A DNA stretch of 48,173 bases from a virus, in the IMG/VR virus record IMGVR_UViG_3300047311_000274, positions 1-48,173 of that record; one strand, 5' to 3'. The notes beneath the pieces were generated by a model that made no database searches, was not told where the DNA came from, and was given only the letters and a program-made list of their open reading frames with translations. Positions 17,701 through 32,440 of this stretch are shown piece after piece. A program made the position numbers and the translations under genes. The number at the start of each line of letters is the position of its first letter. Within the stretch, counting starts at the first letter, position 1.

Positions 17701-17984
17701 ATCGGTGCGCCGTTGGAGTGGAACCGGATGTAGTTCTGCCCAAACTCAAGGACATACGACAGCGTTGTGGAGGGCTGGAAGGGAATCAACCTCGCGCCAG
17801 CGGACTTGGCTTGGTTGATGAACTTCGTGCCCTGCCGAGTCGAGGCACCGCCGCCGGAGTAGTCAACATAGAAGTTGCGCAGCAGCGCGGCACCAGAGTG
17901 GTATTTTTGAATATCCACCCGCGAGCGGAGCTTCGGTGCCCACTCACCAGAGGCAAAGGAGGTTTTGATCGAGGGCTGTGCCAC
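14790..17984 (-). CDS. tail tubular protein B / tail nozzle (T7 gp12-like)
   Basis: The protein has 1064 residues and starts with GTG 17984. The N-terminus is characteristic: SFASGEWAPKLRSRVDIQKY, then NFYVDYSGGGASTRQGTKF, a pattern common to podoviral tail nozzles. The large middle section is Gly/Thr/Ser-rich and beta-structured, probably an insertion compared with T7 gp12 (about 800 residues). It forms the distal tail tube through which DNA leaves. The HNH gene stop (TAG) overlaps its start by one base. Confidence 0.85.
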   Translation of the reverse strand: MAQPSIKTSFASGEWAPKLRSRVDIQKYHSGAALLRNFYVDYSGGGASTRQGTKFINQAKSAGARLIPFQPSTTLSYVLEFGQNYIRFHSNGAPIVETGTAITGITQANPGVVTDVAHGYATGDWVLISQVGGMTQLNGNYYIVVNTGVNTYTLTDLNGNAINTTAFGAYTSGGLAHRVYTITSPYNTSDLFPNPVTGNPGLKWVQNVTSLIITHPSYAPAVLTINSATSWTLVNAAFGPAISTPTGLANGAGTNIGAGTWFYGYRVAAVDINGQESGPSVALILSSLLYIGTTVGTIQVTWTAVTGAASYNVYKTLPINGSVPSSGAQYGFVGNVTTAVFNEAYPGIVADFSQTPPIIENPFIGPGVTSYNVTAAGAYTTVPGVIVAAPPSGQTATSITSLGVTVVGAITHATGNQDILTTGPDPNGSLLTFSNGIILRITGTALIGTGGGHSFWEVTSVGASPVSSGSITAGSTPTNPVSPGGCTAAGFVGFNASGGSFGISFTWGVKDILPVMGGNGYVTAPAVTFSAGAAAATAVIGPASSGNPGVPGFIQERLAFAGSSQAIQSFNFSQPGSFFNFNVSNPSQDDDAISGTIISEELNDIRWLLPVPTGIIAGTGKGAWLINGGGGISTQVPITPSNATAQPQSFNGVNDLRPIKINSDTLYATNKGNYIRSLSYSIYTQLFTGSDISVLSNHLFFNNYLLDWAWAEEPFKTLWAIRGDGQMLSLGYVKEQELVGWAHHDTNGQFQSVCSVIETVSTGNVVDAIYLVVQRLVQGTLVPYVERMADRYFTYGYEDAWSVDCALQTQPALSPTSTLLGFNDASQVGNSVTFQDPGGAPFTSQMATNGWVIRAGGGIYKIVTFTSSAQITATVIRPPTLINSYTNKPSPVTTGYTIWTPITSVSGLTQLIGQSVVGVADGVAVGPYTVSALGTVALGLTATKVTLGLAYLPQLQTLPLDLGEPTVQGKRKKITGLTLRVADTLGLQVGKTFATVVAMKDFTLGNVPTTSTGVAMVSDLVSGDGRTIIDQEWDTAGNYCIQQNLPYPATILGAMPETTVGDGK

Positions 17985-18442
17985 TAAGCAAACTCACCTA
18001 GCAAATTATAACGTGCTGCTTGATACACCGCAGTAGCTTCTTCTGCAGATTCAAACGATCCTAATTCATGCCTTACACCATTCACTTCTATCCTCGAACG
18101 ATATTTAGTGCCATGTACTTCATAGCCTAACGCATTCTTCTTAGCAGCAGCATTATTTTGTGCATTAGTACATTCCCGCAAATTGGAGATTCTATTATCC
18201 CAACGCTTCTCATTTATATGATCGATCTGTTCTGGCATGTACCCATAAGTCAGAAGCCACGCTAATCTATGACCAGATAGTCTATAGCCAAGCAAGCCGA
18301 TTTGCCAATAACCCAAAGCGTTTGGGCAACCAGCAATCTGTCCAATTTTGCTTGGACCTCGACTATTGGTGTTAGCTACCCAATAAAAGTCGCCTGTATC
18401 AGGCTCGTATTTAAGGTATTTCTTTACGATTTCAGGTTCCAT
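17984..18442 (-). CDS. HNH homing-type endonuclease with AP2-like DNA-binding end
   Basis: The protein has 152 residues. The HNH_3 core is visible in SGHRLAWLLTYGYMPEQIDH, INEKRWDNRISNLRECT and NAQNN. The C-terminus, GTKYRSRIEVNGVRHELGSF then SAEEATAVYQAARYNLLGEF, is an AP2-like DNA-binding domain. ATG 18442 lies 7 bp after the tail tubular A stop; the longer frame to 18532 would only reuse tail gene sequence. Free-standing genes like this spread by cutting related phage DNA next to their own site. It is out of place between two tail genes that normally adjoin. Confidence 0.9.
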   Translation of the reverse strand: MEPEIVKKYLKYEPDTGDFYWVANTNSRGPSKIGQIAGCPNALGYWQIGLLGYRLSGHRLAWLLTYGYMPEQIDHINEKRWDNRISNLRECTNAQNNAAAKKNALGYEVHGTKYRSRIEVNGVRHELGSFESAEEATAVYQAARYNLLGEFA

Positions 18443-18449
18443 GTGTTCC

Positions 18450-19631
18450 TCAGTAAGGTGAGTAAGAAGCACCCCAGTCAAAGGAAAGATTCGGAGAATA
18501 CTCAAAGTTCGGCCCAACACCATAACCCCCACGGGTTCGAATGAAGTCAGGGGTTACATCGTTGACAGTGATGCCCTCATTGCCGTCAGCCTTGCGGGCT
18601 TCCATCACCATGCTATTAGCAAGTTGGATTTGTTGATTTGCAAGAGCCTTATCACCAGCGAGTTGGAAGGTTAGCCGCGCTGCAAGAATGTGTACCCACG
18701 CATCTTGAAAAAGAGGATCCATTACGTTAGGATCAACAACCTGGGTGTTATAACAAAGGATGGCTTGTGATTGATTACAAAGAATTACTCGTTGGGTAGT
18801 TGAGAAAGGAGTGAAGGTTAGGTTAAAGGTTGCACCAGCGCCCACGCTTGGGTTGCCTCCTACGCCAGCCACTGATCCTTGCGCAACAGGGTTGACCGGA
18901 ATTGAAAAGTAGCTACCACCACCTGGACCGAGAGTAGCAACAGGAAACTCGCCTATGATTTGAGCTAGGACTAGAACTCCAGTCACAGCGCCGCTTCCGC
19001 TAACACTAGAAACTAAAAGCTGCGCAGGTGCTCCGGCATCCATTGTATAGGAAGTGATCGAAGGTGGTTGGCCAACCGGAGCAGAATTTTGCTTAAAGCT
19101 ATAGACCGGTTGTTGCAAGGTGATAATGTCGTTGACTGAGTAACCTGAACCGCCACTTGCGATTGCTGCGGTTAGCACAGTGAAGAAAGAGTCAGTGGCG
19201 ATTTTGAATTTGAGCGCAGGGCCGGTCCAGCCAGGCTGGCCTGCACCAGTGACAGTCCCCGCCGGGTAGATCGGCACACCTCCAGCTTGGGTGGTGTACT
19301 GCGGGATGATCATTCGCGCACGAAGACAATCGAAAGGATACTGATACTCATAAGTCCAAGGAATCGGCGGCTGGCCAACTTGCCAAAGTGGGGCGCCTGC
19401 CTGTGGATTCTCAGGGTTGCCTGGGAGAGTTGATATATACGTGAGCGGAGCCCACTTCGTCACGCAGTCCCAAGGGGCCATCCGGTTTAGCTCGTCGCGG
19501 AGTTGGAACATAATCAGCTGGCATTGGATGGCCTCGTTCGAGGACTGCGCGTTGAACTCTGCCAAGGTCATGTTTGTGCGCGAGCCCATAACCTGTAAGG
19601 CACGATTGGCGATGTCAAGGTTGGTGGTCAT
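18450..19631 (-). CDS. tail tubular protein A / adaptor (T7 gp11-like)
   Basis: The protein has 393 residues. It begins MTTNLDIANRALQVMGSRTN, then LRDELNRMAPWDCVTKWAPL and YQYPFDCLRARMIIPQ, the usual signature of podoviral gatekeeper/adaptor proteins. The C-terminal part returns to the fold (LFQDAWVHILAARLTFQLAG and ANQQIQLANSMVMEARKADG). A Gly/Pro-rich beta insertion of about 150 residues separates the two halves, unlike the roughly 200-residue T7 protein. It would join the portal to the nozzle. Confidence 0.85.
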   Translation of the reverse strand: MTTNLDIANRALQVMGSRTNMTLAEFNAQSSNEAIQCQLIMFQLRDELNRMAPWDCVTKWAPLTYISTLPGNPENPQAGAPLWQVGQPPIPWTYEYQYPFDCLRARMIIPQYTTQAGGVPIYPAGTVTGAGQPGWTGPALKFKIATDSFFTVLTAAIASGGSGYSVNDIITLQQPVYSFKQNSAPVGQPPSITSYTMDAGAPAQLLVSSVSGSGAVTGVLVLAQIIGEFPVATLGPGGGSYFSIPVNPVAQGSVAGVGGNPSVGAGATFNLTFTPFSTTQRVILCNQSQAILCYNTQVVDPNVMDPLFQDAWVHILAARLTFQLAGDKALANQQIQLANSMVMEARKADGNEGITVNDVTPDFIRTRGGYGVGPNFEYSPNLSFDWGASYSPY

Positions 19632-19693
19632 GGATTAGTACTTTCCCTGCTACCGCAACAGCCGTGGTTGGAGCCATGAAGCCCTGGGGTCAA
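19628..19693 (-). CDS. candidate 21-residue microprotein with HGCCGS motif
   Basis: A frame with TTG start at 19693 overlaps the upstream stop as TTGA, and its TGA overlaps the tail tubular A start as ATGA. It reads L/M-TPGLHGSNHGCCGSREST to Asn-Pro. It shares GSNHGCCGS with the end of the 64-residue protein at 21647-21841, with several synonymous base differences. A perfect fit between coupled neighbours supports a real gene. Its very short length and TTG start leave doubt. Confidence 0.4.
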   Translation of the reverse strand: MTPGLHGSNHGCCGSRESTNP

Positions 19694-21222
19694 TGCACCG
19701 TCTTTACCATGTCTGGTAGCATGGTATAGTTTACTACCACGCTCGCGTGTGGGTCTAGGTTTATTGTACAATTCTGTGTACCAGTGCAGTTAAAGAATCC
19801 ACTAACAGATACGTCGCTAACGGCACCACCGAATATATAAACAGTTTCCGGTGAGTCTCCAGCTGTATAGGTAAATGGCGAGGCGCCGACTGTAAGCATC
19901 GAACTACCTACTGGATTGTATCCCCCATTATCCTTTATGGTGTTGTTGGATCCTACATCTGTAATCGCAGTGGTGTTGCCTCCGAAGAAATTGCCTTGGA
20001 CGAGGGTGTTGAAGGCACTGCCTAACATCGCTAGCCCTATACCGCAGAACTGAATTTGGTTACTGATGATGTTGGTCCCGTCCCCCTGCAAAGCGATACC
20101 GTGCGTAGCCGTTAGCGAGTCACAAACAATTACATTGCCAGTAATTGTAGTGAACGCTTGGTTGGTGTCCTGGATGTCAATTGCCGCGAAGTTGGCACCT
20201 GGAGCGATGAGGTTGCCAGTGAAGGTCGAAAGGTTGTAAGATGTCCCGATCAAGATCGAGTCTTTGACAGTGGCAAACTGATTATTGCTCACCAACATTT
20301 CTAATAGGTTCCCTGGCGACGAGCCAGGTACAAGGATGCCAAAGTTAGAGCCCTGTAAGTTGCTCTGGGTTAGAGTTAACCCCTGTGTGTAACCACCCAA
20401 CACGATGCCGTTGTTCAGGTTGTTGAGTGTGTTCTTTGAAATGTTGTGATAGATCGAATAGCCAGTAGTGGTGCCGCAGTCGACTGGGTTGCCGGCGATG
20501 TTAATACCATTTCCCTGTGCAGAACCAGAACCGAAGCCGCCGTACAGTGTCAGTCCATCATAATTAATTCCCGAGACACCGACGATGTTGATCGCATTGC
20601 TCCAATAATCAGTGATCGCTGCATAGGCATCGTCACCACGAAACGTCACCCGGTAAAAGTCAGATTGAGCAAAATCGGCTAAGCAGTCGGTCTGCGTCAA
20701 CGTTACGCCGTTACCGCTATTAGCCGCTCCTGTTGACACGGTACAATCGCGCATGTGGAATGAGTTACCATGGAATACATAGTTGACCGTTATGCCATTC
20801 CCTGTTGGCCAGAACAGGATAGTGTTATCGGCACCGGAACAGGCGATCGACAAAGAGTGCACACCAGTAGCGATATTATAGGTGATGGCCGAAAGGAATT
20901 TGTATTTACCAGGATGAGAGAATATAACATTACTACTATCAGACAAGGCACTATTGAAAGCACTCGCTGAGTCAGCTGCGCCAGTTGGATCGGCCCCATA
21001 CCAAACCGGGTCGGCATAGCCAAAAATAGCAGTGCAAACTGTGGGTATTAAAATGCAGGTGGTAGTGATAAGACCACCAGAGCTAGGAATAGCTTTAGGC
21101 GGTGCAGGGCTTGCGGTGGAGTTGCCGCAGACAGTGCTAGGAGGAAACAACCCATTGCACTGAGCCGAGGCAGCCCCACACAGCCCAATCAGGATCGCGA
21201 GGGAAAGGAGGATTTTTTTCAT
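19690..21222 (-). CDS. beta-helix tail spike/fibre protein with Sec signal peptide
   Basis: The protein has 510 residues. A clear signal peptide, MKKILLSLAILIGLCGAASA-Q, precedes a region with GYADPVWYGADPTGAADSAS, a motif at the start of many pectate-lyase-like tailspike beta-helices, then repeated short beta rungs (NNGIVLGGYTQGLTLTQSNL, GNLIAPGANFAAIDIQDTN). It may degrade or bind surface sugar. The signal peptide is unusual for a tail protein. The start overlaps the upstream gene by ATGA. Confidence 0.7.
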   Translation of the reverse strand: MKKILLSLAILIGLCGAASAQCNGLFPPSTVCGNSTASPAPPKAIPSSGGLITTTCILIPTVCTAIFGYADPVWYGADPTGAADSASAFNSALSDSSNVIFSHPGKYKFLSAITYNIATGVHSLSIACSGADNTILFWPTGNGITVNYVFHGNSFHMRDCTVSTGAANSGNGVTLTQTDCLADFAQSDFYRVTFRGDDAYAAITDYWSNAINIVGVSGINYDGLTLYGGFGSGSAQGNGINIAGNPVDCGTTTGYSIYHNISKNTLNNLNNGIVLGGYTQGLTLTQSNLQGSNFGILVPGSSPGNLLEMLVSNNQFATVKDSILIGTSYNLSTFTGNLIAPGANFAAIDIQDTNQAFTTITGNVIVCDSLTATHGIALQGDGTNIISNQIQFCGIGLAMLGSAFNTLVQGNFFGGNTTAITDVGSNNTIKDNGGYNPVGSSMLTVGASPFTYTAGDSPETVYIFGGAVSDVSVSGFFNCTGTQNCTINLDPHASVVVNYTMLPDMVKTVH

Positions 21223-21647
21223 GACTGATTCGTCCAGCCCCTAAGGGCATTGCTGGGGTAAAGAATAAAGCCACCGTAGGCTGAGGAGATTTGAATCGAA
21301 GAGAGACTCATGATAGTCTCAGCACCCGAGGTAGGTTGGATGGTAATTGGATGCGTTGCGGCATTACCACCGATGTCGACGATGCCAATTGAGTTCTTGG
21401 CGTAACCCCCAGGAAGGGCACCTGCTGGAACACCTGGATCAGTCGCTGGAGGCAGGGTGATTGTGACTGCCCCTGCCACGTTTACATGAACTAGATTTGT
21501 ACTAGGGTCTAGAATGTAAGTTCCAGCGGCAGTGATTGTGAGCAAGTTCCTCGCTGGAATTCGCACCCAGCCCACGCTTGAACCAAGGTAGGTATTCACC
21601 CACTCACGAGAGGTTCCACCTTGGTCCAAGTCGAGTTGGGAGGGCAT
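21219..21647 (-). CDS. beta-rich minor tail/fibre protein
   Basis: The protein has 142 residues. It begins MPSQLDLDQGGTSREWVN and continues with a beta pattern, VHVNVAGAVTITLPPATDP and NSIGIVDIGGNAATHPITI, like capping or fibre-stem domains of tail proteins. ATG 21647 shares TAATG with the upstream stop; the frame above it (to 21674) lies in that gene. It has no signal peptide. It precedes the beta-helix spike gene and could be its attachment or tip domain. No family is firmly recognised. Confidence 0.6.
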   Translation of the reverse strand: MPSQLDLDQGGTSREWVNTYLGSSVGWVRIPARNLLTITAAGTYILDPSTNLVHVNVAGAVTITLPPATDPGVPAGALPGGYAKNSIGIVDIGGNAATHPITIQPTSGAETIMSLSSIQISSAYGGFILYPSNALRGWTNQS

Positions 21648-21841
21648 TAGTGTTTCCCTTGTGATCCGCAGCAACCGTGGTTGGATCCACCGATCCCAAC
21701 GCTCTGGCTCATTTGCCCAGACGGGCCCTTCGGTGGAGAGTAGGGGAGGGGCTTGGCCTGGGTTACCCCACCCGACGACGCCGTGGGGCGTTGGTTGCTG
21801 GGGGAATCAGGGCCGTATTCAGAGAGGATATCCCGAGCCAT
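21647..21841 (-). CDS. small protein with SNHGCCGS C-terminus
   Basis: The protein has 64 residues. The N-terminus MARDILSEYGPDSPSNQRPT is polar, the middle is Pro/Ser/Gly-rich, and it ends GIGGSNHGCCGSQGKH, a possible metal-binding or disulfide motif with His-Gly-Cys-Cys. ATG 21841 immediately follows the upstream stop. The end motif is nearly repeated in the candidate microprotein at 19628-19693. The family is not recognised; it sits within the tail-fibre block. Confidence 0.6.
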   Translation of the reverse strand: MARDILSEYGPDSPSNQRPTASSGGVTQAKPLPYSPPKGPSGQMSQSVGIGGSNHGCCGSQGKH

Positions 21842-22126
21842 TTATGCCTCCTCGGTGCGCCGGAAGAACGGGGTGGGGCTAGGCCTATCGGCCTCAGCTT
21901 TGGCTTTGTTAGCTTCGGCGTTAGCCTTAGCCGCAGCTGCCGCCTCGACTTTGGCATCTTCCTCAACCTTCTTCGCCATAGCGTCGGCGTTCTCCTTCGC
22001 TGCGCCTTCTGCATGGCCTTCAAGCTCACGCTGCGCAGCATCGGTCAGTGCCTTCAACCTCGGCCACTGATGAGCCAGATCCGAAATCGAAAGCAGCTTA
22101 TGCACCGCATCCCAGTTAACACTCAT
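21842..22126 (-). CDS. Ala/Lys/Glu-rich helical protein
   Basis: The protein has 94 residues. It begins MSVNWDAVHKLLSISDLAH. Its second half is a long alanine, glutamate and lysine helix (KVEEDAKVEAAAAAKANAEA), probably a coiled coil, ending PSPTPFFRRTEEA. ATG 22126 overlaps the upstream gene by ATGA, and its stop abuts the next start. It could be a structural linker or chaperone for fibre proteins. No family is recognised. Confidence 0.6.
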   Translation of the reverse strand: MSVNWDAVHKLLSISDLAHQWPRLKALTDAAQRELEGHAEGAAKENADAMAKKVEEDAKVEAAAAAKANAEANKAKAEADRPSPTPFFRRTEEA

Positions 22127-22332
22127 GTATGCCTCCTCTGGCTTCCGCCGTGGTGGATGGTTTTCCCCGAGTCCTTCGGGGCCTCAAAGCCTCGACCGGC
22201 GTCCATGGAGATCGAGGAGCCGTGGAGGATCTTTCCGGTATCGGTTGCGTGGTTGCCCATGGCCGAGCCAATTTGACTCACACCCGCAGGGGAGATTGCG
22301 TGGGCTCGAGGCTCACGCTTCCCAGCGCTCAT
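22123..22332 (-). CDS. small basic Gly/His-rich protein
   Basis: The protein has 69 residues. It begins MSAGKREPRAHAISPAGVSQ and ends GKTIHHGGSQRRHT. Its many Gly, Ser and His residues suggest little stable fold. ATG 22332 shares ATGA with the stop of the upstream gene, so it is preferred to the frame's earlier ATG at 22359. The family is not recognised. Its place among tail genes suggests a minor virion or assembly role. Confidence 0.6.
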   Translation of the reverse strand: MSAGKREPRAHAISPAGVSQIGSAMGNHATDTGKILHGSSISMDAGRGFEAPKDSGKTIHHGGSQRRHT

Positions 22333-22733
22333 TGAGTTATGTCCTGATCCTTGTCGCATTCACCATTCTCCTTTGGTTTGGTTAGCAGTCGTGTGTGATC
22401 CCAGCGGTTCTCGGGGTCGGATGCCATGTCGCGGCGGACTTTATTGAACGTCCCGCCTTCGGCATTTTGCTCCGTCATCAGCTGGCGGAAGCGGTCGTCA
22501 CAGCGTTCCATCTCACGGAGTTGGTGGGCTGGGACCGTGTGACCGAGTTCTTCGTACATGTACTTGATATCATGAAGGTCATGCATGTAGTTCATAAACC
22601 GCCGGATCTTCTCCGGGACTTCCTTCTCCGCCTCGCTGATGTAGAAGATCACCTTCACCATCATCTCGCGGATCATCTTCATCTCGCGGGCGATGCGTTC
22701 GAGGGTTACTTCCTGGGAGGTTTCATCTGCCAT
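22329..22733 (-). CDS. acidic helical hypothetical protein
   Basis: The protein has 134 residues. It begins MADETSQEVTLERIAREMKM and is predicted almost all helix (EMMVKVIFYISEAEKEVPEK, RRFMNYMHDLHDIKYMYEEL), with a charged end. It has no signal or membrane segment. The start shares TGATG with the upstream stop and the end shares ATGA with the next start. Coiled-coil character suits a tail assembly or chaperone protein. The family is not recognised. Confidence 0.65.
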   Translation of the reverse strand: MADETSQEVTLERIAREMKMIREMMVKVIFYISEAEKEVPEKIRRFMNYMHDLHDIKYMYEELGHTVPAHQLREMERCDDRFRQLMTEQNAEGGTFNKVRRDMASDPENRWDHTRLLTKPKENGECDKDQDITQ

Positions 22734-23236
22734 CAGACCCTACGCGTTTCCGGCTTCTTCGCCTGAAGCTCTGCGTTCTGCATCATGAGTTCGGCGAGTT
22801 GGGCTTGGAGGGCTTCGAACTCCGCACGGCTCACACCGGATTCGGTGACGGTCACGGCAGGCACCGGCATCTTGGAAGTGAGCTCCGCGAGTTGCTTCTC
22901 CAGCGAGCCCAGAAGGCTGGCGCTGAAGCCCTGACCGGGGAGGGATTCGATTGGGTGCTTCCAAGACGCAGCGTGCTGGGCTGAGATAGCCTCAGCCTCG
23001 GCGTCCAACGGATCCATCGCTGGGGTTGGGGTGCCTTCGAAGATCGAGTCCGAAGCCAGCCCCTTACCCTCAAGGCAGACGAGAGTTTCAGCTTCAAAGT
23101 AGAAGGGGACTTTGAACCGCTTCCGCCGCTCTCGGCCGTTGACCCGATCGGTTTCCTTGTACTCCCATTCAACCTCGTCGAGGTCTGGCGGGCGGCCATA
23201 GAGATAGTGTGGTTCGGTTAGTTTCCAACGTGCCAT
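22733..23236 (-). CDS. hypothetical protein with C-terminal coiled coil
   Basis: The protein has 167 residues. The N-terminal half starts MARWKLTEPHYLYGRPPDLD and continues EVEWEYKETDRVNGRERRKR, a pattern common in phage proteins of unknown role beside structural genes. The C-terminal part is a coiled coil (SLEKQLAELTSKM, EFEALQAQLAELMMQNAEL). ATG 23236 is chosen because AGGAG lies 7 bases upstream; the frame further up runs inside the preceding gene. Confidence 0.7.
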   Translation of the reverse strand: MARWKLTEPHYLYGRPPDLDEVEWEYKETDRVNGRERRKRFKVPFYFEAETLVCLEGKGLASDSIFEGTPTPAMDPLDAEAEAISAQHAASWKHPIESLPGQGFSASLLGSLEKQLAELTSKMPVPAVTVTESGVSRAEFEALQAQLAELMMQNAELQAKKPETRRV

Positions 23237-23247
23237 TAAAATCTCCT

Positions 23248-25497
23248 TTATGTGAAGTGTCCATTTGCTGGGTCGATCCAGGTAGGGAACGCGGCGGTGG
23301 TGGCGGTGGAGTTGGGGTCGAAGTTGGAGCCGAGGGCTTGCCAAGCGGTGAAGGTCAGCACCGAGCCGCTGTCCTTGTTGAACTGCGAAGCGTTCGTCCC
23401 GCCATTGGTGGCGTTGGGGCACAGATAGTTGTTACGATCGATGATCGAGGTGGCATGCTGTGTTGCCGCGGACTGCAGTTCAACAATGGAACAAGTGCTC
23501 CCTGTTCTTATGTCTTCAATCTGATTGTCCGTAAACACGAGAGGCCTGGTTGCGGTCAGGGTGGTTCCGCCATCGATGTTGAACACCGCACTTTGTGCGT
23601 TGTATATTTTGTTCCTATAAAGTTGGTAGCGACAAGTGGCGGCCATGGTAGCTGCGACGGCACCACTAATACCAAAGTTTGAAAACCCTTGACCTTGTAT
23701 TCCCCAAGCAAGATTGTCCCGGAATGTTGCCGTAAGACATCCCGCAGTTTCGAAATATGCCCCCAGAGTAAGATTAGGTATTGCATTCTTTTGTGCAACC
23801 ACATTCTTCCATTGACACGAAAGGGCACAGTTGAAACCATCATCCAGGTCCAAGGAATATTGCGTGCCAAAGAAGTAGTTGCTGTCCATGCACCAATATT
23901 GGGCATAGGCCGTCGACACCACACCAATGCAGGTAAACAATGGTATCGAAATCGATCCATTGCTGATGTTATAGGTTCCAGCCCCGCCTGTCCCTGTTCC
24001 TAGAGACGTGATCGTACCAATTACTTGACTGATGATAGCTGGATTGAACAGTGTCATCCCGACCTGGAACGGCGGGCTTGAGTTAGCTGCCAGGCCAATA
24101 GTCAGAACACCGCCAATTATACTATCAGTCGGCCCGCCGGAATAGTTGCTGAAAGCGGTGGTGTGATTGTTGAAATCTCCATTTATGCAATAAGACCGCG
24201 TAGGATCACCAGTACCATTTAACACACTCGTGCCGAAATCCATCCATCGTACTAGGAAATTGTTTTGAATAACAGGATAGATGTGATGATCCTGAGCTCC
24301 GCCTTGACCACAGCCAACGATTGATCCGCCCACGATGAATAGCCATTGTTCCCAAGTGGCAATGTCCATGCCCATACGGTTAGGAGGACTGCCAGTAATT
24401 GGACTTGAGACTTTCACATTCCAACAACCTGCGCGCACTTTAAGAGGAACCCCAAACGCGGTATTTGGTGTTAGGCAAAAAACATCCTGTGAAGTTAAAG
24501 CCGCTGTTGTAGTTGAAATCACCGTCACATTGTCAAAGTAAAAATCATTGACCTCCAGCAATGGGTCGTCATTTTGACCAAGCAAGCCACAGGCAATCTG
24601 CGCAGTGTTACCGGGTCCGCATTTAGCCACGACATTTGAAATGACGATGTCCTGCAACCATACACCGCCGGAAGATCCTGCAGACCCAGTGCTGAATTGA
24701 ATGGGGGCGTATGTATTTACGTTGTCCTCACGGATGGGATCGGCCCCGACACCATAGGCATCGACACGAAAACCGTTGACCGGTGTAGTATTGCCATTGC
24801 CAATGCCAGCAGCGCCATTGAGAAAAAGCGACCCACGCTTCAAATGCATCGCGCAGTTGGTGAAGCCCGCTGCGTTAAGTACAGTGAAAGCATCGCCTAG
24901 ATTATTGAATGGCGACAGGAGTGTTCCACTGCCTCCGCCAGCAGCAGCAGAATCAACCCACACTTCTGCACCGGAAGCATTGAAGGTGCTGGCAGTGAAA
25001 GTCGTCGTTGCGGTAGCTGTGGTGAAGCCTGCGCCGTTAGCGCCCCGAATCGTCAGGGTAACGGTATATGTGTCAGCTACGCGGCAGACAAATGCAGCCT
25101 CGGGGCCGGTTTGGTCGGTGTTGGCGTTGACGGTCGGACCGCCGGTGGAGTAGGGATAGATCGATGGATTGGTGAAGTTCTCGGCGGCAACAGAGCCACC
25201 AGCGCGAGTTAGAGTCCAAGTGTATTCAAGGTCTTCGTAGGGCTGCACAATGCCACCAACCGCAGTCGCGGTGATGTTCATGGCTGATGCTTGGAAGAAC
25301 GCAGGCAGTTGGCCCGAGGAGCGAGACAGCTCGATGCCACCGCTAACGTCGATGGCTGTGATCTGGACATTGGGGTTGCCGCCGAATCCTGCGGGAGGTG
25401 GGGAGCCAGCATTACCATGGGTCCAAGCGAGCGAAGGAATTGCCCGCCAAATGGCTAAGAAACTCGCGCCAGCTAATAGGTTGCGTTTAGTCAACAT
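23248..25497 (-). CDS. exported beta-helix protein with PKD-like domain (probable receptor-binding or tail-spike protein)
   Basis: The protein has 749 residues. It has a signal-like N-terminus, MLTKRNLLAGASFLAIWRAI then PSLAW. Residues around 60-180 look like an Ig/PKD beta-sandwich (VQPYEDLEYTWTLTRAGGS, ADTYTVTLTIRGANGAG). The rest starts with EVWVDSAAAGGGSGTLLSPF, the usual entry to right-handed beta-helix proteins, and continues with repeated rungs. ATG 25497 overlaps the upstream stop (ATGTTGA). It probably binds or cuts a cell-surface sugar. Location in the tail-fibre block supports this, but the substrate is unknown. Confidence 0.65.
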   Translation of the reverse strand: MLTKRNLLAGASFLAIWRAIPSLAWTHGNAGSPPPAGFGGNPNVQITAIDVSGGIELSRSSGQLPAFFQASAMNITATAVGGIVQPYEDLEYTWTLTRAGGSVAAENFTNPSIYPYSTGGPTVNANTDQTGPEAAFVCRVADTYTVTLTIRGANGAGFTTATATTTFTASTFNASGAEVWVDSAAAGGGSGTLLSPFNNLGDAFTVLNAAGFTNCAMHLKRGSLFLNGAAGIGNGNTTPVNGFRVDAYGVGADPIREDNVNTYAPIQFSTGSAGSSGGVWLQDIVISNVVAKCGPGNTAQIACGLLGQNDDPLLEVNDFYFDNVTVISTTTAALTSQDVFCLTPNTAFGVPLKVRAGCWNVKVSSPITGSPPNRMGMDIATWEQWLFIVGGSIVGCGQGGAQDHHIYPVIQNNFLVRWMDFGTSVLNGTGDPTRSYCINGDFNNHTTAFSNYSGGPTDSIIGGVLTIGLAANSSPPFQVGMTLFNPAIISQVIGTITSLGTGTGGAGTYNISNGSISIPLFTCIGVVSTAYAQYWCMDSNYFFGTQYSLDLDDGFNCALSCQWKNVVAQKNAIPNLTLGAYFETAGCLTATFRDNLAWGIQGQGFSNFGISGAVAATMAATCRYQLYRNKIYNAQSAVFNIDGGTTLTATRPLVFTDNQIEDIRTGSTCSIVELQSAATQHATSIIDRNNYLCPNATNGGTNASQFNKDSGSVLTFTAWQALGSNFDPNSTATTAAFPTWIDPANGHFT

Positions 25498-26423
25498 ATT
25501 CCACCTGAGACACCACCTAGCGCGGTAAGAGCAACGTTGGTTGCATGGCACAGGTCGGTAATGTCTGCGCCCGACAGGCCGCCACCAATGGAGAAGGTCA
25601 TGATCTGGCGAGCCGAGCCACCTCCAACCCCGGTGCCGGGAACATTGTAAGCAAGAACATAGAAGTTGCCGTTAGTTGGAGCGGCGGAACCTTTGCCCAT
25701 GATCATCTGGTCAGCCGCGTTCCAGTATCCAAGGTCTGCCGTAAGATTGGTCCTGTTGGCAAGGAAATGTCCCAGGCTGTTTCCTGATGGGGTCGCACCA
25801 CTGGCAAAGGCGTTGGCGTTCGCCGTGTATGACGAATTTCCAGCTGACGCCGCCGAGAGGCCCGCAGATATGTAACTCGCAACCGGCGTTGCGACATCGA
25901 TCAATCCCATATCGACTTCGTTACTGGGAGCCGGGCTGTTGCTGGTGTTGCTCCAAAACGCCAGGTGGGCGGAGTTCTGCGTGTAGTGGCCTCCAGCCGT
26001 CGAAGGGTTGAAGTTAGTGTCGAGCGCGATGGTGGTGCTGGCATCGACTCCCGTATATCCACGATTGGCCGTAAATGTCGGAGTGCTAATTTCAGTGGTG
26101 TTGAATGTACCTGGCTGTGCCATGTTGATTAAGGCATCAGCCTTATTCGTCAGTGCCAGGAAGTTCCAGACATCAAGCTTGGCAAAGACGCCGCTGGTTA
26201 CTCGACCGCAGATCAGCGTATCGAGGGCGGTCTTTTCGCCTCCGGTGAGAGTGGTAGCGGCTGCGAAGTATGCAGTTGATTGCGAACAGGATCCACCAGC
26301 ACCGCTGCTAGGTGGGTTATTGTAAGCCGAGTCGCGAGTCTGCCAATAAGCGCGGGTCGGCACCTGCGTCAGGCAGACAATTCCGGCGAGCAGAAGTGCC
26401 CAGACTGTAAAGCGGTGCCACAT
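25491..26423 (-). CDS. exported beta-rich phage surface protein
   Basis: The protein has 310 residues. The N-terminus MWHRFTVWALLLAGIVCLTQ is a signal peptide ending near TRA-YW. The body is Ala, Asn, Thr and Gly-rich, with AHLAFWSNTSNSPAPSNEVD and NGNFYVLAYNVPGTGVGGGS, as in lectin-like or Ig-like fibre modules. Cysteines occur near both ends (GGSCSQS, GGVSGGIC). ATG 26423 shares TAATG with the upstream stop. It is in a run of signal-peptide proteins. The family is not firmly recognised. Confidence 0.6.
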   Translation of the reverse strand: MWHRFTVWALLLAGIVCLTQVPTRAYWQTRDSAYNNPPSSGAGGSCSQSTAYFAAATTLTGGEKTALDTLICGRVTSGVFAKLDVWNFLALTNKADALINMAQPGTFNTTEISTPTFTANRGYTGVDASTTIALDTNFNPSTAGGHYTQNSAHLAFWSNTSNSPAPSNEVDMGLIDVATPVASYISAGLSAASAGNSSYTANANAFASGATPSGNSLGHFLANRTNLTADLGYWNAADQMIMGKGSAAPTNGNFYVLAYNVPGTGVGGGSARQIMTFSIGGGLSGADITDLCHATNVALTALGGVSGGIC

Positions 26424-27622
26424 TAGAGCTGATATCCCCAAGCCGAGACGGACACAACGCCACCAGTACCTGGTGCTCCAGATACCACGTTGATTGCTGT
26501 GTTTGTTGCGCTAGATGGGATGCAGGGCGAGAAGATCATTTCAGTCACGCCCAGACCGCTCGCATTCGGCGCGGTCCATTGGGTGAAGTTCATGGTCGCG
26601 GTAACGACGCCAGTCAGCGTGGCGTTGTTAGTCACCGCCGCCGTTGCGTTGGCGCGGATCGAGAATCCGCAGATATAGGTCTTGAGACCGCTACCGGAAG
26701 CCGCGAGCGTGGCAGTGGTGGCTGCCGTGGTGCCGGTTGCGGTCGCCGTGATCGGCACAGCGCCGTCTGCATAAGGAGCAGTTCCGACTGTGCCGATATG
26801 GGCGGTGCCAGCAGGAACGGCCGCGCCGGTGTTCGTGGCGATCGTAGAAAGGGAGGCAAGCTCGGTGGTTTGGTTGGCGGACGTAGCCGCGCCAGTTGGT
26901 AGAACACTAGCGTCTACGCTAGTGGAAAGCTGGTTGCTGGCGTTGACGTTGGCCCCTCGGGCGTTGCCAGCGGCATCGCGGATGATTCCATAGGCGCCAT
27001 TCAACGTACCTGGCGCCGCCACGTAAGCAGTTCCGTTATAGAGATAATTAACTACCGCACCAGTGTTGTTGCCGTTGACACCAGTGGTTGGATTGAGGGC
27101 AAGAGCGGTAAGCCAATTCTGCGTGTTGGTTCCATCGCTCAAAGCAACGCGAACAGGATTGCCAACAAGCGCAGCACCCGTGGCGCCAGGGCCGACGACC
27201 TGGGCATTGAGGTTCGAGGCGGTGGCCTGGGTGGCTGCGGTGGTGGAACCAGTGTCGATAACTGCGTGAAGGTTGGTACCAGTCGCCTGCGTGACAGCAG
27301 TCGTCGAGCCGGTATCGATCACTGCATGAAGATTAGTTCCAGTCGCTTGCGATACAGGCTGGGTAGTGGTGCCTGTTGGGTCGACTCGTACTGGGGCACC
27401 GGAGACGCCGATTTCGGCTCCTGCAGAGTTGACCAAACCTACGGCCTGGCATTGAGTGTTGGCCGCAGCGCAAAGGGCGGAGCCTCCGTGGGTTGCGTCG
27501 AAGGCTCGGATCAGAAGGCCGGAGCCAGAGCTTGCGCCGTAGTCAGCCAGGGCGTAGATGGGCAGGATGGAGATAAGGCCAAGGTAGGCCAAGCGGAGAA
27601 AGCGTAGATGCCATTTGTTCAT
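26423..27622 (-). CDS. exported repeat-containing fibre-like protein
   Basis: The protein has 399 residues. Signal peptide MNKWHLRFLRLAYLGLISIL then PIYALA-D. Residues 92-131 hold two near-identical 20-residue repeats starting QATGTNLHAVIDTGSTTA, with a third weaker copy (QATASNLNAQVV). The C-terminal 90 residues (TYICGFSIRANATAAVTNNA, MIFSPCIPSSATNTAINVVS, SAWGYQL) match the end of the 143-residue protein at 27801-28232. Low complexity in Thr, Ala, Gly and Asn suggests an extended fibre shaft with a folded tip. Confidence 0.65.
   Translation of the reverse strand: MNKWHLRFLRLAYLGLISILPIYALADYGASSGSGLLIRAFDATHGGSALCAAANTQCQAVGLVNSAGAEIGVSGAPVRVDPTGTTTQPVSQATGTNLHAVIDTGSTTAVTQATGTNLHAVIDTGSTTAATQATASNLNAQVVGPGATGAALVGNPVRVALSDGTNTQNWLTALALNPTTGVNGNNTGAVVNYLYNGTAYVAAPGTLNGAYGIIRDAAGNARGANVNASNQLSTSVDASVLPTGAATSANQTTELASLSTIATNTGAAVPAGTAHIGTVGTAPYADGAVPITATATGTTAATTATLAASGSGLKTYICGFSIRANATAAVTNNATLTGVVTATMNFTQWTAPNASGLGVTEMIFSPCIPSSATNTAINVVSGAPGTGGVVSVSAWGYQL
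27230..27349 (-). repeat. two 60-bp coding tandem repeats
   Basis: Two adjacent 60-bp units inside the fibre-like gene encode residues 92-111 and 112-131, reading QATGTNLHAVIDTGSTTA plus V-T or A-T. The units differ at several mainly synonymous positions, so the repeat is old and kept at protein level. A third degraded unit continues toward 27194. Such units allow length change of a fibre shaft. Confidence 0.8.
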
Positions 27623-27819
27623 GGCGCACCTCCAAGCATGGGCAGCGCACAGCCCACGGAAAGGTCAATTACCCCTGCGCAGGTTGGACCAACAGGGGTG
27701 CCTCCGCCAGAGAGGGAGTCGGTGACTCCGCGAAGGAGTTGCGCCGAGGCGGATACAGAGAAGATCAAAAGAAGAGCGGTTAGGTGGGTGAATAGGCGGG
27801 TCAATTTGTATACCCCCAT
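27619..27819 (-). CDS. small exported protein
   Basis: The protein has 66 residues. Signal peptide MGVYKLTRLFTHLTALLLIF then SVSASA-Q leaves a mature peptide of about 40 residues, LLRGVTDSLSGGGTPVG and so on, with two cysteines (PTCAG, VGCALP). ATG 27819 lies inside the end of the upstream gene (19-bp overlap), and the stop shares ATGA with the next. The family is not recognised. It could be a small secreted or outer-surface protein, or a lysis or entry peptide. Confidence 0.65.
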   Translation of the reverse strand: MGVYKLTRLFTHLTALLLIFSVSASAQLLRGVTDSLSGGGTPVGPTCAGVIDLSVGCALPMLGGAP

Positions 27820-28232
27820 GCGGTTATCGCGGCGACAGTGCCAGCGCCCCCAGCAGGGAGGGTTACAACGATGGAGGTGTTGACTGCGGAGGAAGAGATG
27901 CAACCCGGGAAGGCGACGCCGAGAATGCCCTGGCCAGAGGAGACAAAGGCGTATTCATAGTTCATGGTAGCGAGGGTGCCGGTGATTGCAATGTTGCCGA
28001 GGGTAGCAGAGGTGGTGCCTGCGGAAGTAACGACGAAGCCACAGAGATAGGTCCACTTGCCTGCAACGCCGGTGAGGGTTGCGGTGAAGGAACCAGTGGT
28101 GCCAGTTGCCGAGGCAACGAGGTTATTGGGTTGGCCTCCCTGCGGGAATGGGGCGGTAGTGACGATTTGAGCCTGGGCTGGCGCTATGCCCAGGAGAGCA
28201 GCGAGGAAAAGCGCCAGTCCAAGGTTTCGCAT
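27801..28232 (-). CDS. exported beta-domain protein (paralogue of the 26423-27622 C-terminus)
   Basis: The protein has 143 residues. Signal peptide MRNLGLALFLAALLGIAPAQ-AQ. The mature part carries KWTYLCGFVVTSAGTTSATL, LGVAFPGCISSSAVNTSIVV and AITAWGYTN. The spacing of CGF, PGC/SPC and the WGY end matches the C-terminal domain of the larger fibre-like protein, so the two probably share a fold with a disulfide. Its RBS region lies 9 bp after the upstream gene. It is probably a virion surface or host-interaction module. Confidence 0.65.
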   Translation of the reverse strand: MRNLGLALFLAALLGIAPAQAQIVTTAPFPQGGQPNNLVASATGTTGSFTATLTGVAGKWTYLCGFVVTSAGTTSATLGNIAITGTLATMNYEYAFVSSGQGILGVAFPGCISSSAVNTSIVVTLPAGGAGTVAAITAWGYTN

Positions 28233-28241
28233 CGGGGTCTC

Positions 28242-28694
28242 CTACGACGAGCTAACGCACATATAGGCGATGGTATTGTTAGCGGTCGAGGTTTGGGTGA
28301 TGGTTAGGGTAGTAGTGGCAGTGGCATAGGAGAGGGCCGCAAGGATTGCGGACTTCGGGGTCAGGAGACAGACCGGAGCGGTGACAAAGGGCGTGCCGAA
28401 GGTGAGCACGCAGGAGGTGGTGGCGGAAGTGCCGACGGTGATGACCCCAGCGAAGTCGGTGCCGACAACAGATGGAGAGGTCGTACCGCAATTGGCTGCT
28501 GCCACCGTCGGAGGTGGGCCACCTCGGGTTGTGGTAAGGAGGTGGTTAGGGAGGTAGATATTGTTAGAGGTATCGTAGCCGATAAGACCGGTTGGGTCCT
28601 GAGAGAGTTGGACTGCTTTGTTGATGTTCTGAGCAAAGGCTAAAGCCAGGCCAAGGGCCAGGATCACAGCCGAGGGGAGTAGGAGCTTTTTCAT
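28242..28694 (-). CDS. exported beta-domain protein
   Basis: The protein has 150 residues. Signal peptide MKKLLLPSAVILALGLALAF then AQ. The C-terminal 90 residues, with NCGTTSPSVVGTDFAGVITV, SATTSCVLTFGTPFVTAPVC and TIAYMCVSSS, have the G-x-D-x-A-G-x-I-T/T-C/P-x-C pattern seen at the ends of phage fibre and hypothetical exported proteins. The middle has NNIYLPNHLLTTTRGGPPP. ATG 28694 shares ATGA with the upstream stop. It is probably a surface or fibre-tip module. Confidence 0.65.
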   Translation of the reverse strand: MKKLLLPSAVILALGLALAFAQNINKAVQLSQDPTGLIGYDTSNNIYLPNHLLTTTRGGPPPTVAAANCGTTSPSVVGTDFAGVITVGTSATTSCVLTFGTPFVTAPVCLLTPKSAILAALSYATATTTLTITQTSTANNTIAYMCVSSS

Positions 28695-29335
28695 TGTGGT
28701 GCCTCCGTCCAGCGGAATGTTACGTTGAGAAGAGCGGTGGGTGAAGTGGCGTTGAGGTTCACGCAGATTTGCTGCGCTGCGCCTCGTAGAGTTGGGGCTT
28801 CGGAGAAAGTCCGCTCGGCGTAGTCGAACAGGACGTAGGGGGTTACCGCCGCACCGACGGTGGTTGCGACCAAGCCAAGGTTGGCACTGCTGATAATGCC
28901 AGGGGCAGAGTCAGGAATGGTAGGGTTGGCTGTGTAGGAGACGAGGGTTGCGGTGGAGGTTGGGTTGGTACTGTCCAAAGCGTAGGCTACAGGGAGGACG
29001 ACACCAGTACCAGGAGTGCCACCGGTATCGGCGGAGGCGTTCTTCTTGATCAGCACAGGGACGGAGATAGCTGTGCCACTACCGCTGACACGAACCGATT
29101 GGACACGGATCACGCGGGTAGCAGAGCCTGCGATGCAAGCGATGTCGGTTGCGGAAGCAGCAGGAATGATACCTACGCCAGTGGCGGCATAGGTTGCGAC
29201 GGAGGGTTCCTGGGTACAGGTGACGCCGACTTGGGGGACGTTGTTAACGCCACCAACGCCAACGCAGGAGACCTGAGCTTGGGCCGCCCCCGCAAACGCG
29301 AGGGAAGCAACAAGGGCAAGGAGGAGTTTCTTCAT
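28691..29335 (-). CDS. exported beta-rich structural protein
   Basis: The protein has 214 residues. Signal peptide MKKLLLALVASLAFAGAAQA-Q is textbook. The mature part is Thr/Val/Ala/Gly-rich beta structure: RVQSVRVSGSGTAISVPVLI and TPYVLFDYAERTFSEAPTLR. It begins at ATG 29335, 1 bp after the cement-protein stop, with GGAG upstream (AAGGAGGAGTTTCTTC region read from the other strand lies within the gene start). No family is recognised; it directly follows head genes, so a decoration or connector role is possible. Confidence 0.6.
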   Translation of the reverse strand: MKKLLLALVASLAFAGAAQAQVSCVGVGGVNNVPQVGVTCTQEPSVATYAATGVGIIPAASATDIACIAGSATRVIRVQSVRVSGSGTAISVPVLIKKNASADTGGTPGTGVVLPVAYALDSTNPTSTATLVSYTANPTIPDSAPGIISSANLGLVATTVGAAVTPYVLFDYAERTFSEAPTLRGAAQQICVNLNATSPTALLNVTFRWTEAPQ

Positions 29336-29336
29336 G

Positions 29337-29870
29337 TTAGTTCGCCACCGTGATGCCAGCAGGGTAGCCGCCGAGGACCGCGTTCTTGGTGGATTGGTAC
29401 ATTTGATCATGGCGGTCGAGGACGATGTAGGCTGCGATGGTTGGGTTGCAGGTGGAGACGGTGGTGTAGACCAACTTGAGGAAGCGCGGGACAGCCACGC
29501 CAGCGGGTGGACGAGGCATGTCCATATCCATCAAGCGGGCGCCAACGACAAGCTGGGCGGTGGTGTAGGCTGGAGAGACCCACCAGACGGAGAAGGTGGA
29601 TGGGACGCCAGCGGCAGTGTCGATTGCGCCCTCGAGGGTTACGGTCATCGAGGTGCCGGTGGAGGCAGCGGTGATGACTTGGACCAGGAGCTTGAGGGCT
29701 GGATCGTCACCGATGCCGATATCGCGAGCTTGGCCTACGCCAAGGATAGTCGCGGAGGTGGTTGGCAAACCAAGGTTGCCAAGGTCGATGATGTTTGCGG
29801 AGTCTTGGGTAGTGCCTGACGCCGTGATGAGAGACCCGGTGTCGAAGGCGAGGAGTGCGTCGAGGATCAT
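29337..29870 (-). CDS. Bbp16-like capsid cement protein
   Basis: The protein has 177 residues. It begins MILDALLAFDTGSLITASGT and has the pattern SANIIDLGNLG, IGIGDDPALKLLVQVI and GARLMDMDMPRPPAGVAVPR, typical of the Bbp16 family encoded right after the major capsid gene in BPP-1-type podoviruses. It has no signal peptide, in contrast to the genes that follow it. GGGAGG lies 8 bases upstream of ATG 29870. It would bind and stabilise the mature shell. Confidence 0.82.
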   Translation of the reverse strand: MILDALLAFDTGSLITASGTTQDSANIIDLGNLGLPTTSATILGVGQARDIGIGDDPALKLLVQVITAASTGTSMTVTLEGAIDTAAGVPSTFSVWWVSPAYTTAQLVVGARLMDMDMPRPPAGVAVPRFLKLVYTTVSTCNPTIAAYIVLDRHDQMYQSTKNAVLGGYPAGITVAN

Positions 29871-29884
29871 GGTGCATGCCTCCC

Positions 29885-30928
29885 TTAAGTGAGCGCTGCT
29901 TCGTTGTTGAGGATGGCGTCACAGGTTCGCACCGGGATGCCGCGGAAGGTGGTGACGGGTTTGCCATCGAACTCCTCGATGCGGAGGAGGACGTTGGTTT
30001 TGTTCATCGCCTGAAGATCGAGGTAGGTTCGGATGACACGGTTGCAGTAGATGACGGAGCGGCCCATGTTCGCACGGACCTCAGGAGTGTCGGAGGTCTG
30101 GATGGTGCCGGCTGAGACGGGCTGGGTCGGGAGTTTGTAGATGGCCCGGACCAAGAGGTTGATGAGGTTAGCCGCGGACACGCCGGTGAGTTGGGTGATG
30201 TCAATGTTCGCGATCCGGACGATATAACGCCAGTCGCGGAGGACATAACCGATCTCCCACTTAAAGTGATCGCGATAGGCTTGGTAGGTGTTGCCCGAGG
30301 CATCGGTTACCGGCCACTCACCCATGTCGCGGTGCTGAAGGCCGGTGATCTTGCCCTTAGGGAAGGTTGCGTGGGCAGTGTCGTCGCCCCAGACCTTGAG
30401 CCAGATCGAAGTGTTGGTCGAGGCTGCGCCGCCGCCATCGAGGACGTTGTTAGCGGTTTGAGAACTGGCGGTGGTCTTCGTGGAGTATCGAGGGGACAGC
30501 CCGGTGAACCGCTCTGGGTTCACGAACTGGTTCCCGTAGATCATTGTCGCGGCGATCTGCTGGGACATGCCTTCGAGGAAGGCCTTGACTTCGGAGAGTC
30601 TGAACTCGGCGGTGTTGCCGTTGAGATCAGCGATGTCCTTGTCAATAACCGAATACGTCTCAAGATTACCGCACGTATCCACAATCTGAGCCGTGGTGCT
30701 TTTTGCATTCGGCACACCTTGATTGAGCAGGCGCCAAGTGGCCTGGGGCAGGCCGGTTCGGACGGTGGTCTTGTGCCCGGTTGGGAGGTTCCCCTCGACG
30801 ACCATCATGTCCTCGAGGATTTCGTTCGTCTGGGAAAGGAGCTCGATAATACGGGCGACCTTGTACCCGTCATCAAGCCGCTTGGCCCAGTCTGCGTACG
30901 TCAGCGCGACGTTGCCGATGGTAGCCAT
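29885..30928 (-). CDS. major capsid protein (Bbp17-like)
   Basis: The protein has 347 residues. It begins MATIGNVALTYADWAKRLDD, then LLSQTNEILEDMMVVEGNLP and YSVIDKDIADLNGNTAEFRL, all typical of the BPP-1/Bbp17 type HK97-fold capsid family. Later KTNVLLRIEEFDGKPVTTFR and GIPVRTCDAIL form the conserved C-terminal part. It lies between scaffold and cement genes. It assembles the icosahedral shell. Confidence 0.92.
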   Translation of the reverse strand: MATIGNVALTYADWAKRLDDGYKVARIIELLSQTNEILEDMMVVEGNLPTGHKTTVRTGLPQATWRLLNQGVPNAKSTTAQIVDTCGNLETYSVIDKDIADLNGNTAEFRLSEVKAFLEGMSQQIAATMIYGNQFVNPERFTGLSPRYSTKTTASSQTANNVLDGGGAASTNTSIWLKVWGDDTAHATFPKGKITGLQHRDMGEWPVTDASGNTYQAYRDHFKWEIGYVLRDWRYIVRIANIDITQLTGVSAANLINLLVRAIYKLPTQPVSAGTIQTSDTPEVRANMGRSVIYCNRVIRTYLDLQAMNKTNVLLRIEEFDGKPVTTFRGIPVRTCDAILNNEAALT

Positions 30929-30941
30929 GAGTTATGGTTTC

Positions 30942-31655
30942 CTATTGCCTGGTTGAGGAAGGGAGCGTTGGCCACATGGCAGCGGCTGCGGATGGTGGCG
31001 CCGTACGTCCGGACTGGGATTGACCCTCCTTAGACGGACCATTACCTGCAACGTGCGTGCCCTCAGTTACCTTCTCGGCGAGCCGGGAGATAACGCGGAT
31101 GAAGGCAGGGTGGTTGCCGACTCCGGTTAGGTCCATGGCTGCTTTGAAGTCTGAGGCCAGCTTCGGATCGCCAAGGCCATCAAGGGCCTTGGATATGCGA
31201 ACGTTGATCTCCTGACCCGGGCCGAGCTTGCCACGCAGGTCGGGGTGCGATTCGGAATCCTTGCGCCAGCCGTCGGTCATTTCTTGATAGGCCTTGGCTG
31301 GGGCGGAGGAGAGTTCGGAAATTTGCTTGCCATAGAAATCGACAAGGGACTGAGCAGCGTCTTGAGAAAGGCCCAGGCCTTTGAAGAGGTTGTCGGCTTC
31401 GGTTTTGACCTCGGGCGAGAGGGTAACGCCGTCGGGGAGTTTGTAGTCGGAGTACTTTTCTGGCGCGCCTTCGACTGCCTTGACCTCCGCCTTCTCAGGG
31501 GACTTGTCCTCAGTGAGTAGTGTCTTCCCCGACTCCGTCGTCTCCGGGGTCGTACTCGAAGGTGACTGATCCGTCTGCGTCGTCTGGCCGTCCGAGATCT
31601 GACCCTCCGCCGTTCGCGTCACTCCCGCTGTGTCCACTGTCGTCTCGTCGGGCAT
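30942..31655 (-). CDS. scaffolding protein
   Basis: The protein has 237 residues if it starts at ATG 31655. This start is chosen because AAGGA lies 9 bases upstream; a frame from 31682 adds 9 residues. The N-terminus is acidic and disordered. The middle has YSDYKLPDGVTLSPEV and a helical region GLSQDAAQSLVDFYGKQISE common to phage scaffolds. The end is Pro/Ser-rich. It precedes the capsid gene, as usual. Its first 146 bp overlap the upstream gene in another frame. Confidence 0.82.
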   Translation of the reverse strand: MPDETTVDTAGVTRTAEGQISDGQTTQTDQSPSSTTPETTESGKTLLTEDKSPEKAEVKAVEGAPEKYSDYKLPDGVTLSPEVKTEADNLFKGLGLSQDAAQSLVDFYGKQISELSSAPAKAYQEMTDGWRKDSESHPDLRGKLGPGQEINVRISKALDGLGDPKLASDFKAAMDLTGVGNHPAFIRVISRLAEKVTEGTHVAGNGPSKEGQSQSGRTAPPSAAAAMWPTLPSSTRQ

Positions 31656-32270: not shown

Positions 32271-32440
32271 GTGTCGACGATCTCCCTGAGCATCCAGACT
32301 CGGGCATTGGCACCAGCGACGAACATTTGAAACACTTTCCAGCCATCTTTGCCAAAGCGGTTGAGGGCGACGGTGGCTTCCTCGTCTGTGCTGTAACCGA
32401 GGCCCTCGACTAGTTCATTTCTGTATTCGAACTGTTTCAT
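32267..32440 (-). CDS. DUF4177-like small protein
   Basis: The protein has 57 residues and is too short for most gene finders. It reads MKQFEYRNELVEGLGYSTDE, then VALNRFGKDGWKVFQMFV and ends REIVDT. The N-x-x-G-x-D-G-W-K-V core and leading E-Y match the DUF4177 type. ATG 32440 shares ATGA with the portal stop and its own stop shares ATGA with the next gene. Both overlaps strongly support translation. The function is not known. Confidence 0.78.
   Translation of the reverse strand: MKQFEYRNELVEGLGYSTDEEATVALNRFGKDGWKVFQMFVAGANARVWMLREIVDT

Follow-up and report, generated by a model that had tools for sequence, protein, structure and literature searches.

The 48,173-base IMG/VR virus record IMGVR_UViG_3300047311_000274, hereafter the window, carries between its major capsid gene and its tail tubular A-like gene a block of eight genes, SP1 to SP8 (Table 1), whose products are predicted to be exported. 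Textbook accounts have tailed phages assemble entirely in the cytoplasm. We consider it fairly probable that the block encodes an apparatus for receptor binding and decoration whose parts are made in two compartments. That its exported spikes join the virion at lysis seems probable to a similar degree; here we infer export, cleavage, docking and presence in the virion. The proposal builds on the signals and their confinement to one part of the genome, the pairing of cysteines, the fold of a small anchor protein, the occurrence of that anchor in split and fused form, and a conserved mature N-terminus followed by variable bodies.

Signal peptides and paired cysteines

A first-pass annotation of the window had noticed a run of signal-peptide genes inside the structural operon. 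All eight open reading frames that it named were found where it had placed them, on the minus strand and with plausible starts. We scored them with a home-made scorer for Sec signals and signal peptidase I (SPase I), which combines n-, h- and c-region frequencies with a cleavage matrix from -5 to +1, and used 1170 composition-preserving shuffles as the null (median -5.0, 99% 9.1, maximum 13.1). The eight score 10.7–28.1, every one above the 99% level of the null. The portal, terminase, scaffold, capsid, cement and tail tubular proteins of the window all have negative scores, and an internal virion protein scores 5.3. A cruder, rule-based check accepted seven of the eight and failed SP7, which has an arginine in its h/c region. 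Six signals are clear; those of SP6 and SP7 are weaker, and the bodies of these two proteins hold 4 and 16 cysteines, as is typical of the exported proteins here. The run therefore stands in substance, except that it is not contiguous, since six signal-less genes (21219-23236) separate the seventh signal gene from the eighth. Chance signals were ruled out by the shuffles and by the contrast between genome regions described below. Lipoprotein processing by signal peptidase II was rejected as well: no lipobox ([LVI][ASTVI][GAS]C) is present, and the SP8 junction ASA/QC (slash, predicted cleavage site) has glutamine, not glycine, alanine or serine, before the cysteine.

The annotation had proposed comparing the block among related phages, and in that comparison the signals recur. 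A scan with the capsid protein yielded 80 loci of uncultured viruses, of which 51 were non-redundant after removal of near-copies; the counts that follow in this paragraph refer to these 51. Signals occur in 114 of the 371 genes (31%) that lie between capsid and tail tubular A and in 5 of 418 (1.2%) upstream (Fisher P about 1e-35). Not one signal was found in the capsid, portal, scaffold, cement and tail tubular A families, and wherever a locus has more than five genes in the interval from capsid to tail tubular A, one or more of them bear a signal. The signal is retained across relatives although the bodies change strongly. The usual junction is A-x-A/Q, with alanine at -3 in 82 of 110 signals, alanine at -1 in 94 of 110 and glutamine at +1 in 90 of 110.

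Three cysteine tests are independent of the logic of the signal scorer. Across 216 non-redundant mature signal proteins, the number of cysteines is even in 192, odd in 6 and zero in 18 (1.77% Cys), as compared with 114 even, 189 odd and 246 without cysteine among 549 signal-less proteins of the same loci (0.61% Cys; P about 1e-47 for the difference in parity). Some copies of the SP1 domain have a signal and others do not. The main cysteine pair of the domain is found in 47 of 56 signal-bearing copies, while in the 14 signal-less copies the first column of the pair never holds a cysteine and the second does so twice; one of these signal-less proteins matches a tail-fibre PHROG. Lastly, the 54 relatives of SP2 show the cysteine patterns CCCC (42), --CC (8) and -CCC (4), so that the first pair is missing jointly in eight and four more are without the first column only. 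Four sequences have a cysteine two columns off, which we read as the same residue, shifted. These patterns fit disulfide formation in the periplasm. Together, the signals, the cysteine parity and an SP1 domain whose cysteine pair is nearly confined to the signal-bearing form support export well, and we hold it to be very probable that the signal proteins of the block are exported.

A reading without export would take the hydrophobic N-termini for virion-targeting or membrane-anchoring peptides, or for substrates of a prohead protease. It has a parallel in Porphyromonas phages, whose signal-like capsid N-termini were ascribed to prohead-protease cleavage (PMC10367356). However, the A-x-A/Q junction is the pattern of SPase I, the cysteine pairing tracks the signal, and the capsid, scaffold and portal proteins have no such N-terminus here. 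We regard this reading as very improbable.

A signal-less, XD1-like anchor beside a probably exported spike

The gene that overlaps the start of SP8 encodes the anchor, and the overlap of its stop with the SP8 start reads ATGA. The predicted structure of the anchor (predicted local distance difference test, pLDDT, 83.8) superimposes on the XD1 domain of CBA120 TSP4 with a Z score of 12.6 and an rmsd (root mean square deviation) of 2.0 over 95 aligned residues, and also resembles T4 gp10 (Z 10.8) and T4 gp9 (Z 9.2). In line with this, the anchor matches phrog_20556 (baseplate). A single XD1-like domain fills the 142-residue model, in which no XD2 or XD3 docking domain is present; we therefore speak of an XD1-like anchor and not of a member of the TSP4 family. 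Among the relatives, a standalone anchor is directly followed by a signal-bearing gene in 41 of the 45 cases that could be read, mostly with the ATGA overlap. In others (L057/L058, L062 and L081; labels beginning with L denote loci of relatives), the anchor domain forms the N-terminus of signal-less proteins of 524–828 residues, and the end of the one in L058 matches a tail-fibre PHROG. No T7-like fibre of the kind found in these fused-anchor loci is encoded in the window or in most records with an exported spike.

The mature N-terminus of the SP8 type reads QCNGxFPxNTxCGN in nearly all of 42 sequences, and the bodies beyond it cannot be aligned. In SP8 itself the body matches NosD beta-helices (E 1.8e-8); no match to PDB sequences was obtained for SP8, including its body, nor for SP1 or SP2. 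One exported spike among the relatives ends in an S74 endosialidase-chaperone domain, and S74, pectate-lyase-like and BNR domains occur in other exported proteins of the block. A conserved end, putatively for attachment, followed by interchangeable bodies is the layout known from receptor-binding proteins. The profile of the anchor also matches inside cysteine-rich signal proteins of 286–443 residues in four loci (Table 1); the beta domain of the anchor seems to exist in an exported form too. One of these, an exported 442-residue protein of L064, matches a tail-fibre PHROG.

We propose that the capsid, the tail tube and the signal-less anchor would be made and assembled in the cytoplasm. The eight spike-, fibre- and decoration-like proteins would pass through Sec, be cut by SPase I, usually at A-x-A/Q, and fold with disulfide bonds in the periplasm. 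Once holin and endolysin had opened the cell, SP8, and probably the other exported proteins, would bind finished virions via the anchor. The annotation had considered three roles for the proteins once exported. Export itself is upheld, and joining the particle at lysis fits best, at least for SP8, because it is paired with the anchor, combines a conserved mature N-terminus with a variable body and replaces a fused fibre body. The exported proteins may still act on neighbouring cells or the matrix, or decorate the cell surface.

The main rival explanation is that the proteins are exported and never join the particle, acting instead in the periplasm, at the surface or in the surroundings of the infected cell as superinfection-exclusion factors, receptor blockers or matrix-degrading enzymes. 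The evidence for export applies to it just as well, and several bodies look glycan-active (NosD/pectate-lyase-like, BNR, GDSL lipase/arabinofuranosidase). WceF of Pantoea stewartii, an exported enzyme with a tailspike fold (PMC7949094), lends it further weight, as do the signal-bearing Porphyromonas phage genes (PMC10367356), the Wzy_C membrane protein inside the block of some relatives, and a separate exported protein of the window with a PEP-CTERM-like tail. However, the spike adjoins a signal-less tailspike anchor in the great majority of the cases counted above and replaces fused fibre bodies; most exported-spike phages show no other fibre, the block has a late structural position, and the anchor and SP1 families have domains in common with tail-fibre proteins. 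That all of the exported proteins stay with the cell appears unlikely to us.

A mixed case, in which SP8 alone joins the virion and SP1–SP7 form a variable exported host-interaction set beside it, draws on two observations: SP1–SP7 turn over fast among relatives, and the linkage to the anchor concerns SP8 only. Against it, relatives of SP1 and SP2 usually adjoin the cement gene in many loci, the SP1 model is a jelly roll (pLDDT 87) of the phage turret/fibre kind, though with no clear match, and the exported L064 protein has its tail-fibre match. We consider the mixed case a real possibility, though less likely than not.

Several observations weigh against assembly of the particle in two compartments. 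The signal calls rest on a home-made scorer rather than SignalP; the gene caller was likewise home-made, and the relatives are all metagenomic. Among 50,697 phage records nothing matched SP1, SP2, the anchor or two further exported families, and no isolate of this clade, nor any virion proteomics for it, turned up. For SP1, no PDB fold match lies clearly above background (best Z 8.3, for a common arrangement): the HFTV1 turret, the tail fibre of phage 7-7-1 and C1q/TNF heads reach Z 6–8, which is background for such folds, and for a fold match in phage LIMEzero no informative gene position could be established. As these matches show no more than a common jelly roll, we assign SP1 to no family. 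The XD1 domain of CBA120 seems to be a spacer and not a docking face, and secreted bacterial proteases share the XD1 fold (PMC8825819), so that any docking face on the anchor is putative. Moreover, L105 and L114 have both an exported spike and a T7-like fibre, which softens the mutual exclusion with conventional fibres: the replacement is not strict. Finally, the Wzy_C gene, found in 7 of 30 relatives searched, could equally mean modification of the host surface.

This Wzy_C gene belongs to a group of genes for polytopic membrane proteins that lie within the signal block in roughly a dozen relatives and not in the window (Table 1); 7 of 11 tested are Wzy_C (O-antigen ligase-like). The protein may modify host surface sugars or O-glycosylate exported Thr/Ser-rich proteins, and an enzyme of this type is expected to face the periplasm. 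If it does glycosylate the exported proteins, this would be a reason for their export. For the fuller version of our proposal, in which head and tail are cytoplasmic, the disulfide-bonded proteins are periplasmic, the two are joined at lysis only, and Wzy_C might glycosylate the Thr/Ser-rich proteins in some relatives, we see the chances as evenly balanced.

Gene content of the window and clues to the host

Judged by its genes, the window is an uncultured epsilon15/BPP-1-like podovirus. The late genes, which also include internal virion proteins, lie on the minus strand, and matches to phrog_332, 212, 458, 427, 394 and 376 follow the gene order of epsilon15/BPP-1. The portal is 36–38% identical to the portals of BPP-1, epsilon15 and Caulobacter phages. 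Plus-strand genes include those for DNA polymerase A, UDG, a UvrD-like helicase and a PD-(D/E)XK nuclease. An HNH_3 endonuclease gene, probably a homing endonuclease, is inserted between tail tubular A and B, and a similar-looking gene sits between the capsid and cement genes in the relative L016.

Searches of Pfam, PHROGs and NCBIfam with the SP proteins gave NosD for SP8, weak or uncharacterised matches for SP6 and nothing else. SP6 matches phrog_26223 (E 9e-10) and phrog_18498, with a domain common to large phage proteins, as well as Microcystis and Sinorhizobium phage proteins. SP5 resembles signal-less proteins of L297 and L292 and seems, by eye, to carry fibre-type repeats (LPTGAATSANQTTELASL); the C-terminal half of SP3 likewise looks by eye like that of SP5. 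Among the signal-less genes of the block, c22733 has 24 relatives across the 51 loci, all of them signal-less.

Table 1. Coordinates of genes in the window and in related loci (scores from the signal scorer; slash, predicted cleavage site)
Feature	Coordinates	Strand	Signal and cysteines	Remarks
Terminase	34737-36242	-		
Portal	32437-34254	-		phrog_332
102-residue protein	31962-32270	-	score 9.8	between portal and scaffold
Scaffold/protease	30942-31682	-		
Major capsid protein	29885-30928	-	no signal, score <0	phrog_212
Cement-like protein	29337-29870	-	no signal, score <0	phrog_427
SP1	28691-29335	-	after residue 20 (AQA/QVSC), score 28.1, 4 Cys	214 aa
SP2	28242-28694	-	AFA/QN, score 24.4, 4 conserved Cys	150 aa
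SP3	27801-28232	-	AQA/QIV, score 26.5, 2 Cys	143 aa
SP4	27619-27819	-	ASA/QLL, score 18.7 from internal start 27804, 2 Cys	66 aa
SP5	26423-27622	-	predicted exported, score 14.8, 4 Cys	399 aa, fibre-like
SP6	25491-26423	-	weaker signal, score 10.7, 4 Cys	310 aa
SP7	23248-25497	-	weaker signal, score 12.3, 16 Cys	749 aa
c22733	22733-23236	-	no signal, score -17.5	conserved
Small conserved gene	22329-22733	-	no signal	
Small conserved gene	22123-22359	-	no signal	
Small conserved gene	21842-22126	-	no signal	
Small conserved gene	21647-21841	-	no signal	
Anchor	21219-21647	-	no signal, no Cys	142 aa, T4 gp10/TSP4 XD1-like fold
SP8 spike	19690-21222	-	ASA/QCNG, score 24.8, 12 Cys	510 aa, beta-helix-like body
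Tail tubular A-like	18450-19631	-		phrog_394/phrog_376 for the A-like and B-like pair
HNH_3 endonuclease	17984-18442	-		probably homing endonuclease
Tail tubular B-like	14790-17984	-		tail side of block
PEP-CTERM-like protein	43329-43979	+	score 18.6	216 aa
Protein similar to 43329-43979 product	L013:19938-20561			in signal block
Signal proteins matching anchor profile	L060:3522-4853, L064:12686-14014, L065:8327-9655, L016:12717-13577		signal, Cys-rich	286-443 aa
Polytopic membrane proteins	L016:13578-14693, L019:13079-14146, L021:12515-13651, L086:12252-13130, L152, L207, L244, L252, L263, others			not in window

Several observations bear on the host. Capsid relatives occur in metagenome-assembled genomes named Terriglobia, Telmatospirillum and Proteobacteria. 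Glutamine at +1 is found in about 82% of the relatives' signals as compared with 52% in sampled Acidobacteriota and 21% in Alphaproteobacteria, figures that rest on few proteins, and in none of five in Bradyrhizobium plasmid pieces. Searches of these two bacterial groups with the endolysin and the anchor favoured neither. Clear Shine-Dalgarno sites in the relatives speak against a Bacteroidota host. The 102-residue protein, which the first-pass annotation had called similar to the signal proteins, does not clearly belong with them: it scores only 9.8, has no AxA site, is related to proteins of Bradyrhizobium plasmids and recurs in only 2 of the 51 loci, and we left its gene out of the block. 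Its plasmid relatives are in Bradyrhizobium only (at most 47% identity), it was absent from 297 sampled Acidobacteriota, and it offers a hint of a Bradyrhizobium-like host.

A further predicted exported protein, with a clear signal peptide, is encoded on the plus strand of the window and has a PEP-CTERM/VPLPA-CTERM-like C-terminal sorting tail, which falls just below curated cut-offs. A similar protein lies in the signal block of L013. The protein is possibly handled by an exosortase of the host.

Comparison with known phages and exported tailspike folds

The order of terminase, portal, scaffold/protease, capsid, cement, tail tubular A/B and internal proteins in the window matches that of the epsilon15/BPP-1-like podoviruses (Uetakevirus, Rauchvirus). 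There is, however, a clear difference between capsid and tail tubular A. Whereas this interval spans about 10 kb in the window and holds the eight predicted exported proteins, in epsilon15, BPP-1, Caulobacter phage SR18 and Pseudomonas phage HB2107-3I it consists of a few small genes, none of which our home-made scorer called as signal-bearing. The tail spikes of these four phages are encoded elsewhere.

P22 is known to receive its spike late, on a particle that is complete in other respects. We know of no tailed phage whose spikes are exported before virion assembly. Phrase searches of the open-access literature likewise returned no report of signal peptides on a structural block of a tailed phage. 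Filamentous phage coat proteins are structural and use Sec, as proposed here for the tailed-phage proteins. However, filamentous phages assemble at the membrane and tailed phages in the cytoplasm, and thus export in a tailed phage needs a later joining step. If our proposal is correct, assembly, host-range evolution and virion stability would follow other rules in a widespread soil group, and exchanging a spike would take a signal and a short docking peptide but no fusion. A signal peptide and paired cysteines beside an anchor gene would, moreover, provide a test for receptor-binding proteins in metagenomes where similarity fails.

Phages of Porphyromonas gingivalis also have Sec-signal genes with glutamine at +1, as here; the part of the account available for comparison gives five genes of unknown function, possibly host-shaping, and describes no structural block or tail anchor (PMC10367356). 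WceF of P. stewartii, a signal-exported, tailspike-like trimeric beta-helix, offers a parallel to the proposed exported spikes. Unlike them, it is encoded by a bacterial gene, carries a Tat signal and is thought to act on the biofilm glycan of its own host (PMC7949094). Closest to the anchor are the branched tailspike complexes of CBA120 TSP4 and T4 gp10/gp9, with which the 142-residue protein has the XD1 fold in common. When compared with CBA120 TSP4 and T4 gp10, the anchor is a separate gene with one XD1-like domain, and the body encoded next to it carries a predicted signal and cysteine pairs.

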